From: Psychrobium sp. MM17-31
Lineage (GTDB): Bacteria; Pseudomonadota; Gammaproteobacteria; Enterobacterales; Psychrobiaceae
Length of the DNA stretch: 64,000 nucleotides
Direction of reading: 5' to 3'
Assembly: GCF_022347785.1 (NCBI RefSeq)
Contig: NZ_JAKRGA010000004.1
Coordinates: 1-64,000, forward strand
Positions 204-51,893 of this stretch are shown here, piece by piece. Numbering within the stretch: position 1 is the stretch's first letter; each line of letters starts with the position of its first letter. Made by a program: the position numbers and the translations under genes. The notes beneath the pieces were generated by a model. That model was not told where the DNA came from, did not search any database, and worked only from the letters and a program-made list of their open reading frames with translations.

Positions 204-320
204 GACTGGTAACCATAGCAAATTGGTCCCACCTGATCCCATTCCGAACTCAGTAGTGAAACGATTTAGCGCCGATGGTAGTGTGGGGCTTCCCCATGTG
301 AGAGTAGGACATTGCCAGTC
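204..320 (+). rRNA. rrf: 5S ribosomal RNA
   Basis: This is a complete 5S rRNA gene. The conserved core GGTCCCACCTGA, the CCGAACTCAG loop, GTGAAACG, TAGCGCCGATGGTAGTGTGG and GAGAGTAGGAC are all present in order. The ends are defined by helix I: GACTGG at 204-209 pairs with CCAGTC at 315-320. Length (~117 nt) is normal. It lies ~95 bases after 23S rRNA and just before a strong intrinsic terminator. The mature ends could differ by one to three bases. Confidence 0.97.
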
Positions 321-332
321 ACCTATTTAGAG

Positions 333-365
333 AAAGCCGCTGCAGAAATGTAGCGGCTTTTTTGT
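333..365 (+). terminator. rRNA operon intrinsic terminator
   Basis: A 12-bp stem (AAAGCCGCTGCA at 333-344 against TGTAGCGGCTTT at 349-360, one G-U pair, GAAA loop) is followed by a run of T. It sits 13 bases after 5S rRNA and should end the rRNA transcript. Confidence 0.92.
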
Positions 366-394
366 TTTCTGTTTGTGAAACGACTTAGCGCCGA

Positions 395-557
395 AACTCG
401 GCAACATGCTCTTGCGTTGCTCTACTACCGACATCCATGTCGGCAAGCGATCGTTGCTCGCGAATCAACTTGGGCATACCTCGTTTCCTTGAAACTTATT
501 CAAGGGACTTCGGCATGCAATATAGTTACGGTTCTTTCACAAATACTACAACACAGC
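395..557. repeat. Palindrome-rich insert inside the 5S remnant
   Basis: This 163-base segment separates the first two 5S-like blocks. It contains an inverted repeat with 7-bp arms at 428-443 (CCGACAT, two-base loop, ATGTCGG) and a weaker CTTGA...TCAAG arm pair near 490-507. No transposase, tRNA or convincing coding sequence is present. It resembles dispersed intergenic palindromic elements, but copy number elsewhere in the genome cannot be judged from this window. Confidence 0.5.
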
Positions 558-575
558 GTGGGGCTTCCCCAACTT

Positions 576-623
576 GGTAAACCGAGCTGCGTTAGTCCGC
601 TGGACTAACGGTCTCGGCTTACC
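576..623. repeat. Nested three-helix palindrome inside the 5S remnant
   Basis: A long, nearly perfect palindrome consists of three nested arms: GGTAA (576-580) with TTACC (619-623), CCGAG (582-586) with CTCGG (613-617), and GTTAGTCC (591-598) with GGACTAAC (602-609), closed by a 3-base loop. It lies between the second and third 5S-like blocks and could fold as one long hairpin in RNA or single-stranded DNA. There is no T-run, so it is not a normal terminator. Confidence 0.75.
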
Positions 624-731
624 TGAGTAGGACGCCGCTCTTACGCATTTCTATAATTACTCAATGTATTATTCGCTCGAAGAATGAGTGACAGTTGCTT
701 CTTCGCAGGTACTTAACTCTGTCCAGGAATT

Positions 732-24206: not shown

Positions 24207-24258
24207 GGTTAACCCTTATTTGAGTGCCGCTTAGTTAGCATATGCTAATTAAGCGTGA

Positions 24259-24289
24259 GGCTGGTGATTATTTAATCACCAGCCTTTTT
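24259..24289 (+). terminator. Attenuator between rplL and rpoB
   Basis: GGCTGGTGAT pairs perfectly with ATCACCAGCC around a 6-base loop and is followed by five T. It is 52 bases after rplL. As in E. coli, a partial terminator here would lower rpoBC expression relative to the ribosomal stalk genes. The remaining ~240 bases to rpoB contain another small hairpin (CCTACC 24401 with GGTAGG 24418) and no gene. Confidence 0.85.
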
Positions 24290-39684: not shown

Positions 39685-40869
39685 GTGTCTAAAGAAAAAT
39701 TTGACCGCTCCAAGCCGCACGTTAACGTTGGTACTATCGGCCACGTTGACCACGGTAAAACAACTCTAACTGCTGCTATCACTAAAGTACTAGCTGAAAC
39801 TTACGGCGGTGACGTAAAAGCATTCGATCAAATCGATAACGCTCCTGAAGAAAAAGCACGTGGTATAACAATCTCTACTTCACACGTAGAGTACGACACT
39901 CCAACTCGTCACTACGCACACGTTGACTGTCCAGGACACGCGGATTACGTTAAAAACATGATCACTGGTGCTGCTCAAATGGACGGCGCTATCCTAGTAG
40001 TAGCTGCGACTGATGGCCCAATGCCACAAACTCGTGAGCACATCCTACTTTCTCGTCAAGTTGGTGTACCATTCATCATCGTATTCATGAACAAATGTGA
40101 CATGGTTGACGACGAAGAATTACTAGAATTAGTAGAAATGGAAGTTCGTGAACTTCTATCTGAATACGAATTCCCAGGTGATGACCTACCAGTAATCCAA
40201 GGTTCAGCACTTAAAGCTCTAGAAGGTGATTCAAACTGGACTCCTAAGATCGTTGAACTAGCTGAAGCGCTAGATTCTTACATCCCAGAGCCAGAGCGTG
40301 ACATCGATAAGCCATTCCTACTTCCAATCGAAGACGTATTCTCAATCTCAGGCCGTGGTACTGTTGTAACTGGTCGTGTTGAGCGCGGTATCATCAACGT
40401 TGGTGACGCAGTAGAAATCGTTGGTATCAAAGAGACTTCAGAGTCAACTTGTACTGGTGTTGAAATGTTCCGTAAGCTTCTTGACGAAGGTCGCGCTGGT
40501 GAGAACGTTGGTGTTCTTCTACGTGGTATCAAGCGTGAAGAAATCGAACGTGGTCAAGTACTTGTTAAGCCAGGTACAATCACTCCACACACTAAGTTCG
40601 AATCAGAAGTATACGTACTAAGCAAAGATGAAGGTGGTCGTCACACTCCATTCTTCAAAGGTTACCGTCCACAGTTCTACTTCCGTACAACTGACGTAAC
40701 TGGTGCTGTAGAGCTTCCAGAAGGCGTAGAAATGGTAATGCCAGGTGATAACCTTAAGTTTGTTGTTGAGCTAATCTGCCCAATCGCAATGGACGAAGGT
40801 CTACGTTTCGCTATCCGTGAAGGTGGCCGTACAGTAGGTGCTGGTGTTGTAGCACGCATCATCGACTAA
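39685..40869 (+). CDS. tuf: Elongation factor Tu
   Basis: EF-Tu delivers aminoacyl-tRNA to the ribosome. The 394-residue protein has [26 protein letters not shown] and [10 protein letters not shown], and starts at GTG, as E. coli tufA does. It ends the str operon with a terminator at 40897-40924. It is the only intact tuf in this window, but two damaged copies of its 3' end follow it directly. Confidence 0.99.
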
Positions 40870-40896: not shown

Positions 40897-40924
40897 AAAA
40901 AGGTCACTTCGGTGGCCTTTTTTT
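40897..40924 (+). terminator. str operon intrinsic terminator
   Basis: AAAAGGTCAC pairs with GTGGCCTTTT around TTCG and is followed by a T-run, 28 bases after tuf. A copy of the same terminator recurs at 41128-41155. Confidence 0.93.
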
Positions 40925-40950
40925 ATGTTCAGGATGAACGGTATGCCGCG

Positions 40951-40984
40951 AAGCCATGGATGGCTAGGAGCGGTAATGCTCCTA
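40951..40984. repeat. Two adjacent palindromes after tuf
   Basis: AGCCAT-GG-ATGGCT (952-965) is followed at once by TAGGAGC-GGTAAT-GCTCCTA (965-984). They fill the gap between the tuf terminator and the first decayed tuf tail. The core CATGGATG is the reverse complement of CATCCATG, the core of the palindrome in the 5S remnant at 428-443. Confidence 0.65.
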
Positions 40985-40989
40985 ACGCG

Positions 40990-41158
40990 CGCTAATCTGC
41001 GGCTCTCAAAAGTCAGCAATGGACGAATGTCTTAGGTTTGGTTATCTGAGATCGTGGTCGTACAGTAGGTGCTGGTGTTGTAGCACGCATCATCGACTAA
41101 TATTTGGCTTAGCCGAATATATCGATTAAAAAGGTCACTTCGGTGGCCTTTTTTTATG
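40990..41158 (+). pseudogene. Decayed second copy of the tuf 3' end with terminator
   Basis: The 100 bases at 41059-41158 copy 40828-40927 (last ~14 codons of tuf, stop and terminator) with a single mismatch (GGCATAGCC to GGCTTAGCC). Upstream, 41039-41058 still match tuf at about 14 of 20 positions, 41016-41030 match the AATGGACGAAGG segment, and 40990-40999 match GCTAATCTGC of tuf 40770. The stretch between (GGCTCTCAAAAGTCAG) replaces the tuf bases there. The 3' part has been kept or refreshed while the 5' part decays, a pattern expected from a duplicated tuf under local gene conversion. It encodes nothing useful by itself. Confidence 0.85.
41128..41155 (+). terminator. Duplicated tuf terminator
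   Basis: This is an exact copy of the hairpin and T-run at 40897-40924, carried within the duplicated tuf tail. It could act as a back-up terminator. Confidence 0.85.
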
Positions 41159-41183: not shown

Positions 41184-41224
41184 GCTAATCTGCCGCTCTC
41201 AAAAGTCAACAATGGACGAAGGTT
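41184..41224 (+). pseudogene. Third fragment of the tuf tail
   Basis: GCTAATCTGC (41184-41193) and AATGGACGAAGG (41211-41222) again match tuf 40770-40779 and 40788-40799. They are separated by CGCTCTCAAAAGTCAAC, which is shared with the second copy but not with intact tuf. So this fragment descends from the already altered second copy, not directly from tuf. It ends a few bases before the stop of the DUF1223 gene. Confidence 0.75.
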
Positions 41225-41233
41225 AATATATCG

Positions 41234-41971
41234 TTACTTCAGATAACCACCTACACTTTGAATCGGAGTTGGATTGCTATCAACCGTAACCCATGCGGCG
41301 ATTCCAGTGATAGGACTCGAGCTTATAGGTTTTGCTAACTTACTTGTAATAGAAAACGTACCGTTGCTTCTGTTAAGTGGTAACTGTTGAAAGCTTAATA
41401 CGACGAAATCATGTCTTAATAATTTCCCCTCATTTTCACCACGCTTTATTTTGTCGAACAATCCAAATCCGAGTTGCGCAATGTTAAGTGTTAGCTTTTT
41501 ATCACTTGGATGATGCTCTTCGAACTTTGCCTTAAAGGATTGTTCGTTGATTTCTAGAGAGAGTTCTCCAACTTTCACTGGTGATCTTATTGGTAGCGTC
41601 TGACCGTAGAACCATCCATTCCAACCTCGACCGTTTATTACAAAACCAGGTGTTGCGACAACATTAGTATTGCCAAGATCCTTATAAATACGTTGCCGTT
41701 GTGTGAATTCTCCTGACGCATAAGGATCCGGCCATCCTAAATTATCCCAATAATCAACGTGGAAATTAACTGGAATGGTGCGTTTCCAAAGTGCATCGTT
41801 GTCCATAAGTTTGCTTAGCCACTTTTCCGCCGGTGGGCAGCTACTACAACCTTGTGATGTGTAAAGCTCTAACAATTGGACCTGCTCAATACCACTGCGA
41901 AAAGTTTGTAACGTTTGCGCGATTGATAATTTTGAACAGGTTAACAATAGTATTAAAAATATTAGTCTCAA
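41234..41971 (-). CDS. DUF1223 thioredoxin-like exported protein
   Basis: The 245-residue protein has a signal peptide (residues ~1-18) and the DUF1223 pattern: LLELYTSQGCSSCPPAEKW with a CSSC pair near residues 42-45, NFHVDYWDNLGWPDP, and TPGFVINGRGWNGWF. The family has a thioredoxin-like fold and is probably periplasmic; its substrate is unknown. The start is TTG 41971, supported by a perfect AGGAGG eight bases upstream. It stands alone between the tuf remnants and a divergent hydrolase gene. Confidence 0.85.
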   Translation of the reverse strand: MRLIFLILLLTCSKLSIAQTLQTFRSGIEQVQLLELYTSQGCSSCPPAEKWLSKLMDNDALWKRTIPVNFHVDYWDNLGWPDPYASGEFTQRQRIYKDLGNTNVVATPGFVINGRGWNGWFYGQTLPIRSPVKVGELSLEINEQSFKAKFEEHHPSDKKLTLNIAQLGFGLFDKIKRGENEGKLLRHDFVVLSFQQLPLNRSNGTFSITSKLAKPISSSPITGIAAWVTVDSNPTPIQSVGGYLK

Positions 41972-42130
41972 TGTTAAGTCCTCCTGATTATCTTAAGGAC
42001 AATAGCATGTAAGGTGAGTGGAAATTTCACAGCTTTATCACGCTGGCTACGAATATAGGATGATTGCGCCCTTGTTCATAACATACTAGTATAAATTTTA
42101 TTCACGTAATCTTTTGGTAGTGGAGTTAAA

Positions 42131-42745
42131 ATGGACTTGTCGAAAACCGCATTATTGTTGATTGGCTTTCAGAATGATTATTTTCACCCTAAGGGAATTT
42201 TACATAATGTATTCGAAAATAAAGTACAACTCGATGCTGTGCTCTCCAATACCTGCAAAATTATTGAAGCTTTCGCTAGCAGTGAAGCACTGATTATTGA
42301 AACGCCAATTAATTTTACCCCAGACTATAGCGAATTAGATGACCCTATAGGTATCTTAAAAATCATCAAAGATAACGGTGCTTTTGTTAAAGATGATTTT
42401 GGGTCACAGGCCATCCCAGCCATTCACGACAACGAAGCGTCAATTGCATGCCTTCCTGGAAAGAGAGGATTAAACTGTTTCTCAAATACCGCACTTGAGC
42501 AAATGTTACGTGAACAAGCGATTGAAGAAGTTATTATTGTCGGCGCTGTTACTTCGTTATGTATCGATACGGCGGGTCGTGAAGCGATGGACCTCGGGTT
42601 TAAAGTCACTATATTATCGGACTGTATATTAGGGAGAACAGACGTCGAGCAGCAGTTCTACTTAGAACACATTATGCCGCTGTATAGTAGGGTGCAAACT
42701 TCTCAAGAGTTAATTGAATCGCTGAGCAGTATTGATGAGTGTTAG
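42131..42745 (+). CDS. Isochorismatase-like cysteine hydrolase
   Basis: The 204-residue protein has the isochorismatase/nicotinamidase fold with its catalytic triad in view: Asp in LLIGFQNDYF (residue ~15), Lys in LPGKRGLNCF (~112), and Cys in GAVTSLCIDTAGREA (~146). Family members hydrolyse isochorismate, nicotinamide, N-carbamoyl compounds or similar amides; the substrate here cannot be assigned. The last 11 bases overlap the start of the PAS-GGDEF-EAL gene, so the two are translationally coupled. Confidence 0.88.
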   Translation: MDLSKTALLLIGFQNDYFHPKGILHNVFENKVQLDAVLSNTCKIIEAFASSEALIIETPINFTPDYSELDDPIGILKIIKDNGAFVKDDFGSQAIPAIHDNEASIACLPGKRGLNCFSNTALEQMLREQAIEEVIIVGAVTSLCIDTAGREAMDLGFKVTILSDCILGRTDVEQQFYLEHIMPLYSRVQTSQELIESLSSIDEC

Positions 42746-44498
42746 CAATCATCTAAGTGTCAATGAACAGCTGGCACAGGCACAAAATAAGCTGATAGAA
42801 CACCTTTCCCATTCTGAACGACGTTATTCAGAATTGGTTGATAATCTAAAAGATACGGTGTTCCAGATTAATAGCGACTATGAATGGACCTTTCTTAACA
42901 TCGCTTGGGAGCGAGTCACGGGATATACATTAGCTTCCACCAAAGGCGAGTCTTTTTTCGCCCATTTTCATCAAGAAGATAGAAAGCAGTGCAAAACACT
43001 GATGAAACAAGTTGTATCTGGTGAATTGAGTGAGGTCTCAGTTCAGCTTCGTTTCTTTGCAAAAGATAACTCGCCACGCGTCATGGAATTATCCTGTCGC
43101 CCAATTAAAGATGAACTTGGTAATCACAACGGATTTTCAGGCACACTAAGTGATATCACACAACGCATAAACGCTGACAAGAAAATTCGCCATATGGCTT
43201 TTCACGATACCTTGACAGGACTCGCGAATAGACGATTACTGGTGCAAGATATCGAACGAGCCCTCGACCACGAAAATACTCTACAGTCTGTGCTCATTTA
43301 TCTTGATTTGGATGGATTCAAAGGAATCAACGATACTCACGGTCACCTCGTTGGTGACTATGTGCTATCTGAAGTTGCGAGACGCTTGCGATATGAGTTC
43401 AAGGATTTAACGAGTTTAATCGCGAGAATTGGCGGCGATGAATTTGTTGTACACCTCCAGATTACTCAAAAGGCTCATAGTGAAACACAGAAGCAACTTG
43501 AGAAAATTACCGCATCTCTGCAGCAAACGATTAATGAACTCTATTGCTATAAACAACTCACCACTCAACTGACGTCGAGTATTGGTGTGGTTATTTTGCA
43601 AGACACTGCGATGAATCACGATAATGTACTAAGCTTGGCTGATGCGGCAATGTATCGCTCCAAGCTTGAGGGTAAAAATACGATTCGATTCTACGATAAA
43701 GAATTTGAAGCGCAGCAACGAGCAGAGCAAAAGTTTCGCAATGAACTCACCGAAGCGTTCGAGCAAGAACAGTTCGAGCTATATTACCAACCTCAAATCG
43801 ACATCAAGCAAAATGAAATCGTCAAAGTTGAAGCCTTGATTCGTTGGCGTCACCCTGACAAAGGCATTATCTATCCGGACAACTTTATCGACCATCTCGA
43901 AGAGTCGGGGTTGATAATAGATGTTGGTGGCTGGGTTCTGGAGCGTGCGTGCTATCAGTTAGACCAGTGGCGCTCGATGGGAATCGACAATATTCGTGTA
44001 TCTGTCAATGTCAGTGCGGTTCAATTTAAAGCGGGGGATTTTGTAGACCGTGTTCAGCGTAGTCTATCTAAATACAACATCCCGAGCCACTCGCTAGAAA
44101 TCGAACTAACAGAGAGCGTCGCCATTGCCGATATGAACGATTCCACTGATAAGATGCACAAGCTTAACCAACTAGGCATTCTTATAGCACTTGATGATTT
44201 TGGCACTGGCTATTCGTCTCTGGCTTATCTCAAATACTTGCCGGTACAAACCATAAAGATCGATAAGTCATTCATTCATGGGGTGCCAGACGACGGCTAC
44301 GATGCTGCGATTGTTGAGTCCACGATGTTAATGGCTAAATATCTCGGACTAAACGTGGTCGCGGAAGGTGTCGAAAACCCGAAGCAGCTCAACTTTTTGA
44401 AAAATCACGATTGTCAGCTTTACCAAGGTTATCTTCACAGCAAACCTTGTACGCCAGCAGAACTTGAGAACTTGCTCAAAGTTTCGGAACACGTTTAA
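42735..44498 (+). CDS. PAS-GGDEF-EAL cyclic-di-GMP protein
   Basis: The 587-residue protein has no membrane segment and is probably cytosolic. A PAS domain (residues ~28-145, with the PAC end GTLSDITQRINADKK) precedes a GGDEF domain with intact RIGGDEF and a full EAL domain. In the EAL domain EALIRWRHP, LTESVAI, DDFGTGYSSLAYLKYLP, KIDKSFI and AEGVEN are all present. Both synthesis and breakdown of cyclic-di-GMP look possible, with the PAS domain as switch. The ATG at 42735 lies inside the end of the hydrolase gene; the ribosome-binding site is weak, consistent with coupling. Confidence 0.93.
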   Translation: MSVSNHLSVNEQLAQAQNKLIEHLSHSERRYSELVDNLKDTVFQINSDYEWTFLNIAWERVTGYTLASTKGESFFAHFHQEDRKQCKTLMKQVVSGELSEVSVQLRFFAKDNSPRVMELSCRPIKDELGNHNGFSGTLSDITQRINADKKIRHMAFHDTLTGLANRRLLVQDIERALDHENTLQSVLIYLDLDGFKGINDTHGHLVGDYVLSEVARRLRYEFKDLTSLIARIGGDEFVVHLQITQKAHSETQKQLEKITASLQQTINELYCYKQLTTQLTSSIGVVILQDTAMNHDNVLSLADAAMYRSKLEGKNTIRFYDKEFEAQQRAEQKFRNELTEAFEQEQFELYYQPQIDIKQNEIVKVEALIRWRHPDKGIIYPDNFIDHLEESGLIIDVGGWVLERACYQLDQWRSMGIDNIRVSVNVSAVQFKAGDFVDRVQRSLSKYNIPSHSLEIELTESVAIADMNDSTDKMHKLNQLGILIALDDFGTGYSSLAYLKYLPVQTIKIDKSFIHGVPDDGYDAAIVESTMLMAKYLGLNVVAEGVENPKQLNFLKNHDCQLYQGYLHSKPCTPAELENLLKVSEHV

Positions 44499-49850: not shown

Positions 49851-51893
49851 CTAGATGACATTTTGGTCGAGCTGCCAATGCATCGCAAACTGATGAGCCC
49901 GCTCTCTCGGGAGCGCTTCAGCATAATACCACCCCTGTATCACATCTACTTTTAGTTCATTGACCCAATCTTTCTCATTGGCGTTTTCAACGCCCTCCGC
50001 CACAACCGTTAGATTAAGCTCTTTAAACATTTTCACTAATTGCCTATAGATGCTTCGGCCTTTATTGGTGGTGCAACGTTCTAAAAATGAGCGGTCAAGT
50101 TTAATGATGTTTAGATTGAGTTTAGACAGTATCGATAGATTGGAGTACCCCGTCCCGAAGTCATCTAACGCAACTTTGACACCAATGGCGTTTAGCTTGT
50201 CGATATGTTGGTTGATCATATTTGTGTTTTCGAGATAGTTAGATTCAATGATTTCGACGGTAAGCTGATTTGGGAACGCCGTGAAGTTATCGCAAATCAA
50301 GTCGATTAGCTCGCGATTGAGTAAGCTATCTGGGCAGAGATTAATACTGATCCGGGGTGAAAATTGTCTCTTGCGCCATTCTGTTAAATCTAACGCTGCT
50401 CTTTCTATCACCCAGCGATCGATCGTTTCCGAAATGTGATTTTCATATAAGGTTGTGAGGAAATATGGGTTTTTCACGTTACCTTCTTTATCACGGAGTC
50501 GCATTAGGCTCTCATAGCCATAGAGGCTATTTGTTGTCGTGTTGATTTGAGGTTGATAGTAGAGTACTAAATCCCCTTGGCTAATTTCTTCTAATGTGTG
50601 CACGAGAAAGGTATCGTCATCAATCGCTTGGTGTTTGTAATTAAAGTGGCGTGATTCATCCTTATTGGCGACTTGTTGTGGCAGTGACAGTGACTCGTCA
50701 AAATTGATAAGTGCTGTATCAACCGCTCGATAGCGATGGCTCATGTTGACAAAGGGAATATAAATAAGTGTATTAAGAGCGATTAGGCACAACTGAAAGA
50801 ATATGACTAAGAAGCTTTCACTAATAATCCAGCTCTGTATAAAGAATGGCATACTCCAAGACACCGTACCTCCGTTATAGGGGAGCCAGCCGTTCGAGAG
50901 AAATTCGTAGGCGATGGTGTAATTTAAAATTGGACACAGAACAAATGGAATGAAGTAAATGGGGTTAAGTACAATTGGTAACCCATATAGGATCACTTCG
51001 TTCATATTAAAAAGTGTAAACGGAATGCTCAGCCGAGCGATGGAGTTTTCGTGATCTTTACGGCGCTTGATCAATATCGCGATGACCAAACCAAACATAC
51101 CACCAACGCCACCAAGGAATACAAAAGTATCGAAGAAAGATATCATCGACATGTTTGGTAGAAACTCTTCATATAGAAAAGAATTGCCGAATAACGAATC
51201 AAAAGCGTTTGAACCATGTACACCGACTAACCAAAAAAGGCTAGTGAGCAATTGCCTAATTAACCCCTTCGCATATAAATCTCGCTCTTCTATGAAGTTA
51301 CTAAAAGGCGAAAAAGTCCAATCTATAACCACAGCACCATACGGGATGACCAAGTAAAGAGTCGCAAAGACTAGAATAAAAGGCGTTACCATTTGAATGT
51401 TGATGCGTAGAAAACGGCTGATTCCGAATAGACTAACCGTTGTTAATTTTAGGACGCGGAAATAAAAGCGAAGTAAATAGCTACTAAGAGAAGGAATTAG
51501 AATCGCATAAATGGTGGCGTGAGAGGAATGAATAACGATGGCCCCTTGTTCAATTAATACGTAGTTGCCGTGGGTGAGAAAACACACTAAACCGAGCAAA
51601 GAGCCGCCTATCGGGTTAACGCCCAAATTTTTTGAGAGATAAAAGCCAATACTTATCACCATCATGATGGGGTAAATCATTAAAATGATTGAAAGCTCTT
51701 TACTGAAGGATTCGAGATTAATATTACTGAGCGCAAAATCTTGAACGGCGTAGGCATTGAAATGAGTCACTAAACTTTGCACCACTAAAAAGCTGGCCGT
51801 TAGTGTTAAGAAAGCAATAAGAGTAATGAAAGCTTCTCGTAAACTAAGCAGGTAGACGCTGTTGACCACCTTAACGAGATGAGCGTGCAGCAT
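49851..51893 (-). CDS. PTS EIIC-type membrane domain fused to EAL phosphodiesterase
   Basis: The 680-residue protein has about 8-10 hydrophobic segments over residues ~20-385 that resemble the sugar-transporting EIIC domain of the phosphotransferase system. The family-like marks include GVHGSNAFDSLF near 225 and FTLFNMNEVILYGLPIVLNPIYF near 290 (read as a pattern). The C-terminal EAL domain starts near residue 440: YYQPQI, YESLMRLRD (ESL instead of EAL, catalytic Glu kept), the Asn in ISINLCP, VEIIES, ALDDFGTGYSN, KLDRSFL and AEGVEN are all present, so breakdown of cyclic-di-GMP is plausible. No EIIA or EIIB partner lies nearby. It may sense a sugar or act as a transport-coupled receptor. The gene runs against the ribosomal operons and sits exactly between rpsQ and rplN. 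Confidence 0.85.
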   Translation of the reverse strand: MLHAHLVKVVNSVYLLSLREAFITLIAFLTLTASFLVVQSLVTHFNAYAVQDFALSNINLESFSKELSIILMIYPIMMVISIGFYLSKNLGVNPIGGSLLGLVCFLTHGNYVLIEQGAIVIHSSHATIYAILIPSLSSYLLRFYFRVLKLTTVSLFGISRFLRINIQMVTPFILVFATLYLVIPYGAVVIDWTFSPFSNFIEERDLYAKGLIRQLLTSLFWLVGVHGSNAFDSLFGNSFLYEEFLPNMSMISFFDTFVFLGGVGGMFGLVIAILIKRRKDHENSIARLSIPFTLFNMNEVILYGLPIVLNPIYFIPFVLCPILNYTIAYEFLSNGWLPYNGGTVSWSMPFFIQSWIISESFLVIFFQLCLIALNTLIYIPFVNMSHRYRAVDTALINFDESLSLPQQVANKDESRHFNYKHQAIDDDTFLVHTLEEISQGDLVLYYQPQINTTTNSLYGYESLMRLRDKEGNVKNPYFLTTLYENHISETIDRWVIERAALDLTEWRKRQFSPRISINLCPDSLLNRELIDLICDNFTAFPNQLTVEIIESNYLENTNMINQHIDKLNAIGVKVALDDFGTGYSNLSILSKLNLNIIKLDRSFLERCTTNKGRSIYRQLVKMFKELNLTVVAEGVENANEKDWVNELKVDVIQGWYYAEALPRERAHQFAMHWQLDQNVI

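Follow-up and report, generated by a model that had tools for sequence, protein, structure and literature searches.

Miniature elements derived from IS200/IS605 (PATEs) contain internal hairpins and stand in one orientation to a T-rich target, the stem-loops targeted by group IIC introns are often terminators, and integrases often use the 3' ends of conserved genes. REPs, BIMEs and REPtrons are described as short extragenic palindromes that occur in tandem or in composites, with modules in opposite orientation, near gene ends (PMC8266576, PMC3733652). One mark of a REPtron is a conserved tetranucleotide, most often GTAG, on the 5' side of the palindrome (PMC8266576). Group IIC introns insert behind a DNA stem-loop (PMC10190682), and the concerted evolution of tuf and rrn copies, with homogenised tails and terminators, is described in PMC6053082 and PMC8022953.

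We analysed palindromes located behind the tuf and 5S rRNA genes in a 64,000-nucleotide stretch of Psychrobium sp. MM17-31 (hereafter, the window), and compared them with sequences from the 4.17-Mb genome to which it belongs (G000) and from its relatives.

A dispersed family of hairpin repeats

The earlier note on the window had reported two palindromes with cores in opposite orientation, and this was confirmed by the sequence: AGCCATGGATGGCT lies at 40952-40965 at the tuf locus and CCGACATCCATGTCGG at 428-443 at the 5S locus, and their 8-base cores, each with two central bases, are reverse complements. The core itself is not rare. The window contains three copies, compared with 1.34 expected, 14 of 100 shuffles reach three, and the third copy lies inside an ORF; 864 kb of the same genome, window included, contain 29. 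Five of these 29 cores, all outside ORFs, extend to palindromes of 14–18 bp, and two of the five are the pair described above. We accordingly rejected the shared 8-mer as the sole proof of a common origin; kinship rests on composites instead. In agreement with the note's proposal of one element class, the modules that contain the two palindromes adjoin each other in composites at tufB and at two further loci (L013 and L039). As they stand side by side, the inverted arrangement of the shared core is a trait of the family itself.

The palindrome behind tuf is hairpin M2 of a dispersed unit of approximately 51 bp (40925-40977), and that of the 5S locus (426-445) is hairpin M4 of longer composites in the same family (M1, M2 and M4 are labels introduced in this analysis). 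In the unit, ATGTTCAGGATGAACGG (hairpin M1) is followed by TAT and then by the inner hairpin TGCCATGGATGGCA (M2), which is enclosed by a variable outer stem of 5 bp. In the window, M1 occupies 40925..40941 on the plus strand, where it is fused to the tuf T-tract, and is followed by the M2 module (40942..40977, plus strand), which includes the palindrome at 40952-40965. The M4 module, including the palindrome at 428-443, occupies 426..445 on the plus strand and is not docked on a terminator. The core of M2 is CATGGATG and that of M4 is CATCCATG; in the longer composites, M4 has the pattern TAC-NNN-CATCC-N-TG-NNN-GCA.

The stems of both types showed compensatory changes. In an alignment of 41 of the 42 listed units (cut to near full length; one with an insert omitted), 92.5% of cells were paired, 11 of 15 pairs included double changes, and 45 double-change cells were counted, compared with at most 12 in slid controls; none of 500 shuffles reached any of the five measures. 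For M4, 20 of 25 matches were aligned (L242 was omitted twice, and L008, L017 and L222 once each). Its outer positions were fixed by the search pattern, and the three free stem positions covaried, with 14 double-change cells compared with at most two in slid controls; two of the five measures for M4 fell within the range of the shuffles (pairs with a double change, 261/500; pair types, 103/500).

In the 4.17-Mb genome, the stretch behind the tuf terminator is found again at the other tuf locus and at 16 further places (E ≤ 0.01), the weakest three of which are matches of 23–25 bases, and genome comparison revealed that the element is also present in relatives. In an 869-kb sample, an HMM found the element at the two tuf loci only, which indicates a low-copy family here. 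Among genomes of the order, a 20-base pattern from which the T-tract had been left out was found in 9 of 295 genomes and 4 of 99 genera, and a search of plasmids for copies of the element gave no match.

The DNA around M4 at the 5S locus matches a third dispersed repeat (L027-L029) at 84% over 49 bases, and the insert that contains M4 is therefore a mosaic. L027-L030 (G000 C6, C4, C3 and C2) belong to a distinct and longer dispersed repeat, which contains a palindrome of the CATCCATG type and, at these loci, by eye does not stand behind a T-tract. A second module, starting with ATGTTCACGA...TTTAGGAG, was observed directly after a terminator T-tract in L294 (G008) and L112 (G007), as well as behind M2 units of the Psychrobium genome itself at L008 and L012.

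Leading units are fused to terminator T-tracts

The leading unit of an array joins directly onto an intrinsic terminator's T-tract, in a single orientation, and arrays contain one to three tandem units. At tuf, the terminator as read from the sequence occupies 40902..40924 on the plus strand (hairpin, 40902-40917; T-tract, 40918-40924). We read 30 of the 31 places with the exact pattern, from nine genomes, as distinct contexts (24 first units and 6 internal tandem units, with hairpins judged by eye). Twenty-three of the 24 arrays start directly on a T-tract with no gap (one of them, L240, reads TTTATT), and the remaining one (L239) starts after a hairpin and TT; none of the six internal units stands on a T-tract. 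In the set of loci found with the HMM, which is mildly biased because the query contained the T-tract, a script detected a T-tract at 30 of 32 loci, with two lacking it, and an adjoining stem of at least 5 bp at 29 of 32. Since the terminator stems differ between loci, the stem is not part of the repeat. On the assumption of independent copies, which does not hold entirely, the probability of finding 23 of 24 arrays docked in this manner would be approximately 1e-62, given that the sample has 158 predicted terminators in 134,596 bases outside ORFs.

As a rule, arrays of the element begin at terminators, which explains the position directly after a terminator that the earlier note had reported. 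Two kinds of copies deviate: the start of the tufB element lies 17 nt past a tail unit's T-tract, with M1 absent from the HMM match, and the M4 parts of the rrn remnants are undocked, having no T-tract upstream. No description of a palindromic repeat docked on terminators was found in open PMC papers. REPs near gene ends are already described (PMC3733652), and the tail duplications, too, belong to a known kind.

We further examined orthologous terminators in genomes of the same genus, where those of rpsO, rpsI and an EF-G-like gene are kept. The element is absent from the rpsO terminator in all seven matched relatives. At rpsI, it is absent in six, with a variant in G007 and a contig edge in G006; at the EF-G-like gene, it is absent at 8/8 loci, and G008 (L294) contains the other module, which begins with ATGTTCACGA, at the same spot. 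Because relatives keep the terminator without the element at all three genes, the terminator came first, insertion being deduced here from orthologues rather than from strains that differ in the presence of a copy. The sequence TTTTTTTATG (T-tract-ATG) is common at empty sites, and the left-end ATG may therefore be part of the target. At nearly all array starts, the T-tract is followed by A(T/C)G, in which the ATG may be either the target's or the element's, and in 20 of 36 arrays the right end, too, is followed by ATG, which fits a target duplication and an element end alike. The gene names tuf, sucD, rpsO, rpsI, rplI, ilvD, EF-G-like and GGDEF/EAL (L131) were assigned by eye from translations unless a family search is cited.

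Gene-tail units behind tuf and 5S rRNA

The tuf (EF-Tu) coding sequence, an ORF named from its sequence and matched by the tail unit, occupies 39685..40869 on the plus strand. Behind this gene (tufA) lie the element, one decayed tail unit with its own terminator (A1; 40991..41155, plus strand; hairpin, 41133-41148; T-tract, 41149-41155) and the short start of a further unit (A2; 41184..41222, plus strand). The tuf tail together with its terminator recurs at 41016-41156 with 92% identity (E 4e-54); by eye, this copy begins near 40991 and the shorter one near 41184. Behind tufB (C5), we observed a pair of decayed tail units, a composite element and the beginning of another, third unit. The tufB terminator is found in the first unit of the pair (B1) and a terminator of the tufA type in the second (B2), a pattern that suggests local homogenisation. 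In the same genus, G003, G005 and G007 also have tuf tail units with terminators of their own, and none of the 20 scored tuf loci from other families has any; in this survey, 10 loci were dropped because the tuf match was too weak, some scored loci end near contig edges, and a unit in G007 (L052, 30 vs 26) fell below the margin although it was visible by reading. The tuf tails are tandem units, seen in this genus only and partly homogenised with the local terminator.

At the other locus, the 5S rRNA gene (205..320, plus strand; Rfam 5S_rRNA, 97 bits) is followed by a terminator hairpin and T-tract (336..363, plus strand; read from the sequence) and by three pieces of a 5S tail remnant on the plus strand: 375..394, which is identical to the 5S of the sister rrn copies C6 and C8, 556..570 and 623..633. 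These pieces are broken by inserts, and become clear when set beside the rrn ends of C6 and C8, in which the last piece runs through the 5S 3' end and a second terminator; that terminator is absent at the present locus. In Rfam searches of the window, L042 and L043, the remnant was not scored as 5S. Its most fitting reading is a tandem 5S tail that has decayed. One rrn end of the same genome (G000 C6:1-290, L043) contains two complete tandem 5S genes, an arrangement that fits a tandem origin of the remnants.

The tail copies reported in the earlier note are thus real, although the note was mistaken in placing both palindromes inside them. The tuf palindrome sits after the tuf terminator and ahead of the tail copy, outside the copy itself, and the 5S palindrome sits in an insert that separates pieces of the remnant.

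The note had also suggested that the element class duplicates or captures gene tails, and had proposed to check whether each element is preceded by a duplicate of the neighbouring gene's 3' end. A tail copy was found at 0/32 element loci outside tuf (0/12 in the Psychrobium genome, where 12 of the 16 non-tuf loci at E ≤ 0.01 were tested, and 0/20 in relatives), so that these copies of the element lie away from duplicated gene tails, the outcome that the note itself had named as refuting, and the suggestion is not supported. At these 32 loci, the comparison of the gene end with the DNA behind it never exceeded shuffles by the set margin (top excess, 26 vs 24); the same kind of test gave 141 vs 26 for tufA and 46 vs 29 for tufB. 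Tail arrays with element modules were found at tufA and tufB of the Psychrobium genome and at L112 in G007, and tail arrays lacking such modules at L114 in G003, L113 in G007 and sucD in G002. Behind sucD, there are two tail copies with a terminator (the first including a run of N), and G002 has no exact copy of the element pattern. At L131 in the Psychrobium genome, a gene-tail copy spans the junction to the next gene. Direct tandem copies from the 3' part of the gene, including its downstream region, thus occur at both tuf and sucD, as at E. coli tyrT, a known case, where the repeats are 178 nt long and a 21-nt copy including the tRNA-Tyr 3' end occurs in four places.

Tail duplication as a general process was rejected: a downstream tail copy was present for only 2 of 703 ORFs in the Psychrobium genome, and the control, a gene head copied upstream, likewise gave 2 of 703, one being the same event. 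We did not count G002 L157 (two short ORFs), G005 L168 (short repeats), E. coli L213 (H-repeat genes) or E. coli L211 (an ORF antisense to the tyrT repeats) as tail events, the count also left out G017 L208, and an ilvD-like case (G005 L166, named by eye) showed a tail copy at a lower threshold only. Gene-tail copies look like ordinary short tandem duplications, which are rare and seen where the gene stays intact. Elements and tails show a weak co-occurrence, with elements in both tuf tail arrays of this genome and in the rrn remnants; this would be expected because both sit at terminators, and in so small a sample some influence of one on the other may also exist.

Three further observations were made in the window. 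Between tuf and the ribosomal protein genes that come next, there are genes for DUF1223, isochorismatase and PAS-GGDEF-EAL proteins (41234-44498). A gene for a protein with PTS_EIIC and EAL is located on the minus strand at 49851-51893, within the ribosomal protein gene cluster, and Rfam P26, a Pseudomonas sRNA family, scored just over the gathering score at 24216-24285, upstream of an rpoB-sized ORF.

Origin of the repeats and comparison with known systems

The earlier note had recommended a search for a REP transposase or a reverse transcriptase, and neither search yielded a candidate. PF01797 (Y1_Tnp), the family of the REPtron enzyme TnpA-REP (RAYT), had no match in the Psychrobium genome, with 5 of 14 control genomes positive, nor in G003, G006 and G008, which carry exact copies of the element. 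Y1_Tnp matches occurred in G001, G002 and G004, all of which lack an exact copy (diverged copies are present in G001 and G004); G007 has both matches and exact copies, and G005 has copies together with two poor matches, one broken and one below the cut-off. A dependence of the element on RAYT may exist but is not supported; among relatives there is no clear link. The two RVT_1 matches of the Psychrobium genome fit DRT3 defence models, and no mobile reverse transcriptase was found. The adjacent reverse transcriptase genes in L147:14771-18001 (G000 C3, about 364771-368001) matched PADLOC Drt3b (E 2.7e-210) and Drt3a (E 1.8e-128) and, judged from their sequences, are a DRT type 3 defence pair.

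We consider it probable that the data reflect a terminator-docked, REP-like and formerly mobile repeat, together with separate tandem gene-tail duplications. The likeliest route would be past transposition of a non-autonomous element, for which a terminator hairpin and T-tract served as the target. A single-strand enzyme of an IS200/IS605- or REPtron-like kind, perhaps acting in trans and now missing from the genome, may have moved it. Several observations stand against this reading: no Y1_Tnp was found in the Psychrobium genome or in the carriers G003, G006 and G008, the ends of the element are not fixed, the tufB element and the M4 parts of the rrn remnants are undocked, two of the 32 HMM-found loci lack a T-tract, and two of the five M4 measures do not rise above the shuffles. 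A narrower reading, of which we are slightly less than evenly persuaded, is that of a non-autonomous palindromic family in marine gammaproteobacteria that uses the intrinsic terminator as a safe-harbour insertion target, its enzyme still to be found. The tuf and 5S tails, in turn, would be short tandem duplications overlapping the gene 3' end and the terminator, as their tandem structure and shared terminators show; they may survive because the gene stays intact, and recombination may maintain their similarity to the local gene.

An immobile element that is a selected part of strong terminators, such as a backstop hairpin or a protein-binding site, and is spread by recombination would likewise have one orientation to the terminator and covarying stems, and its position behind rpsO, rpsI and rplI (named by eye) would suit such a role. 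However, the same terminators stand alone in relatives, the tandem number varies, and the exact pattern is confined to the 9/295 genomes mentioned above; we therefore regard this explanation as unlikely. Considerably less credible is the idea of the earlier note that the element itself captures gene tails. It draws on the presence of elements in both tuf tail arrays and in an rrn remnant, and on the related module that follows a tuf tail unit in G007 (L112), but it is weakened by the 32 element loci that lack a tail copy and by the tail copies without element modules at G003 L114, G007 L113, sucD in G002 and the L131 gene.

Two explanations of the tail copies seem to us equally and highly improbable. 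Scars could be left by integrative elements whose attachment sites are the 3' ends of genes, and the tail copies do hold the 3' ends of conserved genes. Yet the tandem units are approximately 160–185 bp apart with only short spacers or repeats between them, none of the nine window proteins scanned is an integrase, and no island lies between the tail copies at the loci read in relatives. Alternatively, the 3' ends of abundant RNAs might have been reverse-transcribed and reinserted beside the gene, in keeping with copies that retain the terminator and have start points within the gene that differ between species. However, the reverse transcriptase matches are Drt3a/Drt3b-like only, the L131 copy crosses the junction of two genes, as expected of a plain tandem duplication, and most units include DNA beyond the T-tract, past the transcript 3' end.

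The exact placement at 23 of 24 array starts makes the target rule of the repeat directly testable. If insertion behind terminators is confirmed, it would illustrate a way for a selfish repeat to spread with little harm, and would form a counterpart, at the level of DNA, of introns that target stem-loops. Two processes that seem one when a single genome is viewed, the duplication of gene tails and the insertion of elements, can also be told apart.

Compared with the REP and REPtron systems, the family is similar in its dispersed short palindromes with compensatory pairing (at 16 non-tuf loci of the Psychrobium genome and in relatives), but differs in that no GTAG or CGTC tag precedes the M1, M2 and M4 hairpins, GTAG being absent before the hairpin from the consensus of the 41 units and of the 20 M4 copies, and in that the genome lacks a Y1 transposase. 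Exact terminator docking is a further difference, being absent from the excerpted REP descriptions with which we compared it. PATEs share hairpins within the element and a single orientation to a T-rich target, but no Y1 partner is present in this genome, and the ends and target described here are putative. Unlike group IIC introns, the element is approximately 51 bp of hairpins with no intron or reverse transcriptase, and the reverse transcriptases of the genome are DRT3-like. The tuf and 5S tail units resemble the E. coli tyrT-rttR repeats, which are also tail repeats behind a highly expressed gene, although that gene is a tRNA gene, whereas tuf and 5S genes are involved here. Finally, in contrast to the concerted evolution described for tuf and rrn copies, the homogenisation observed here also extends to the decayed tail units.
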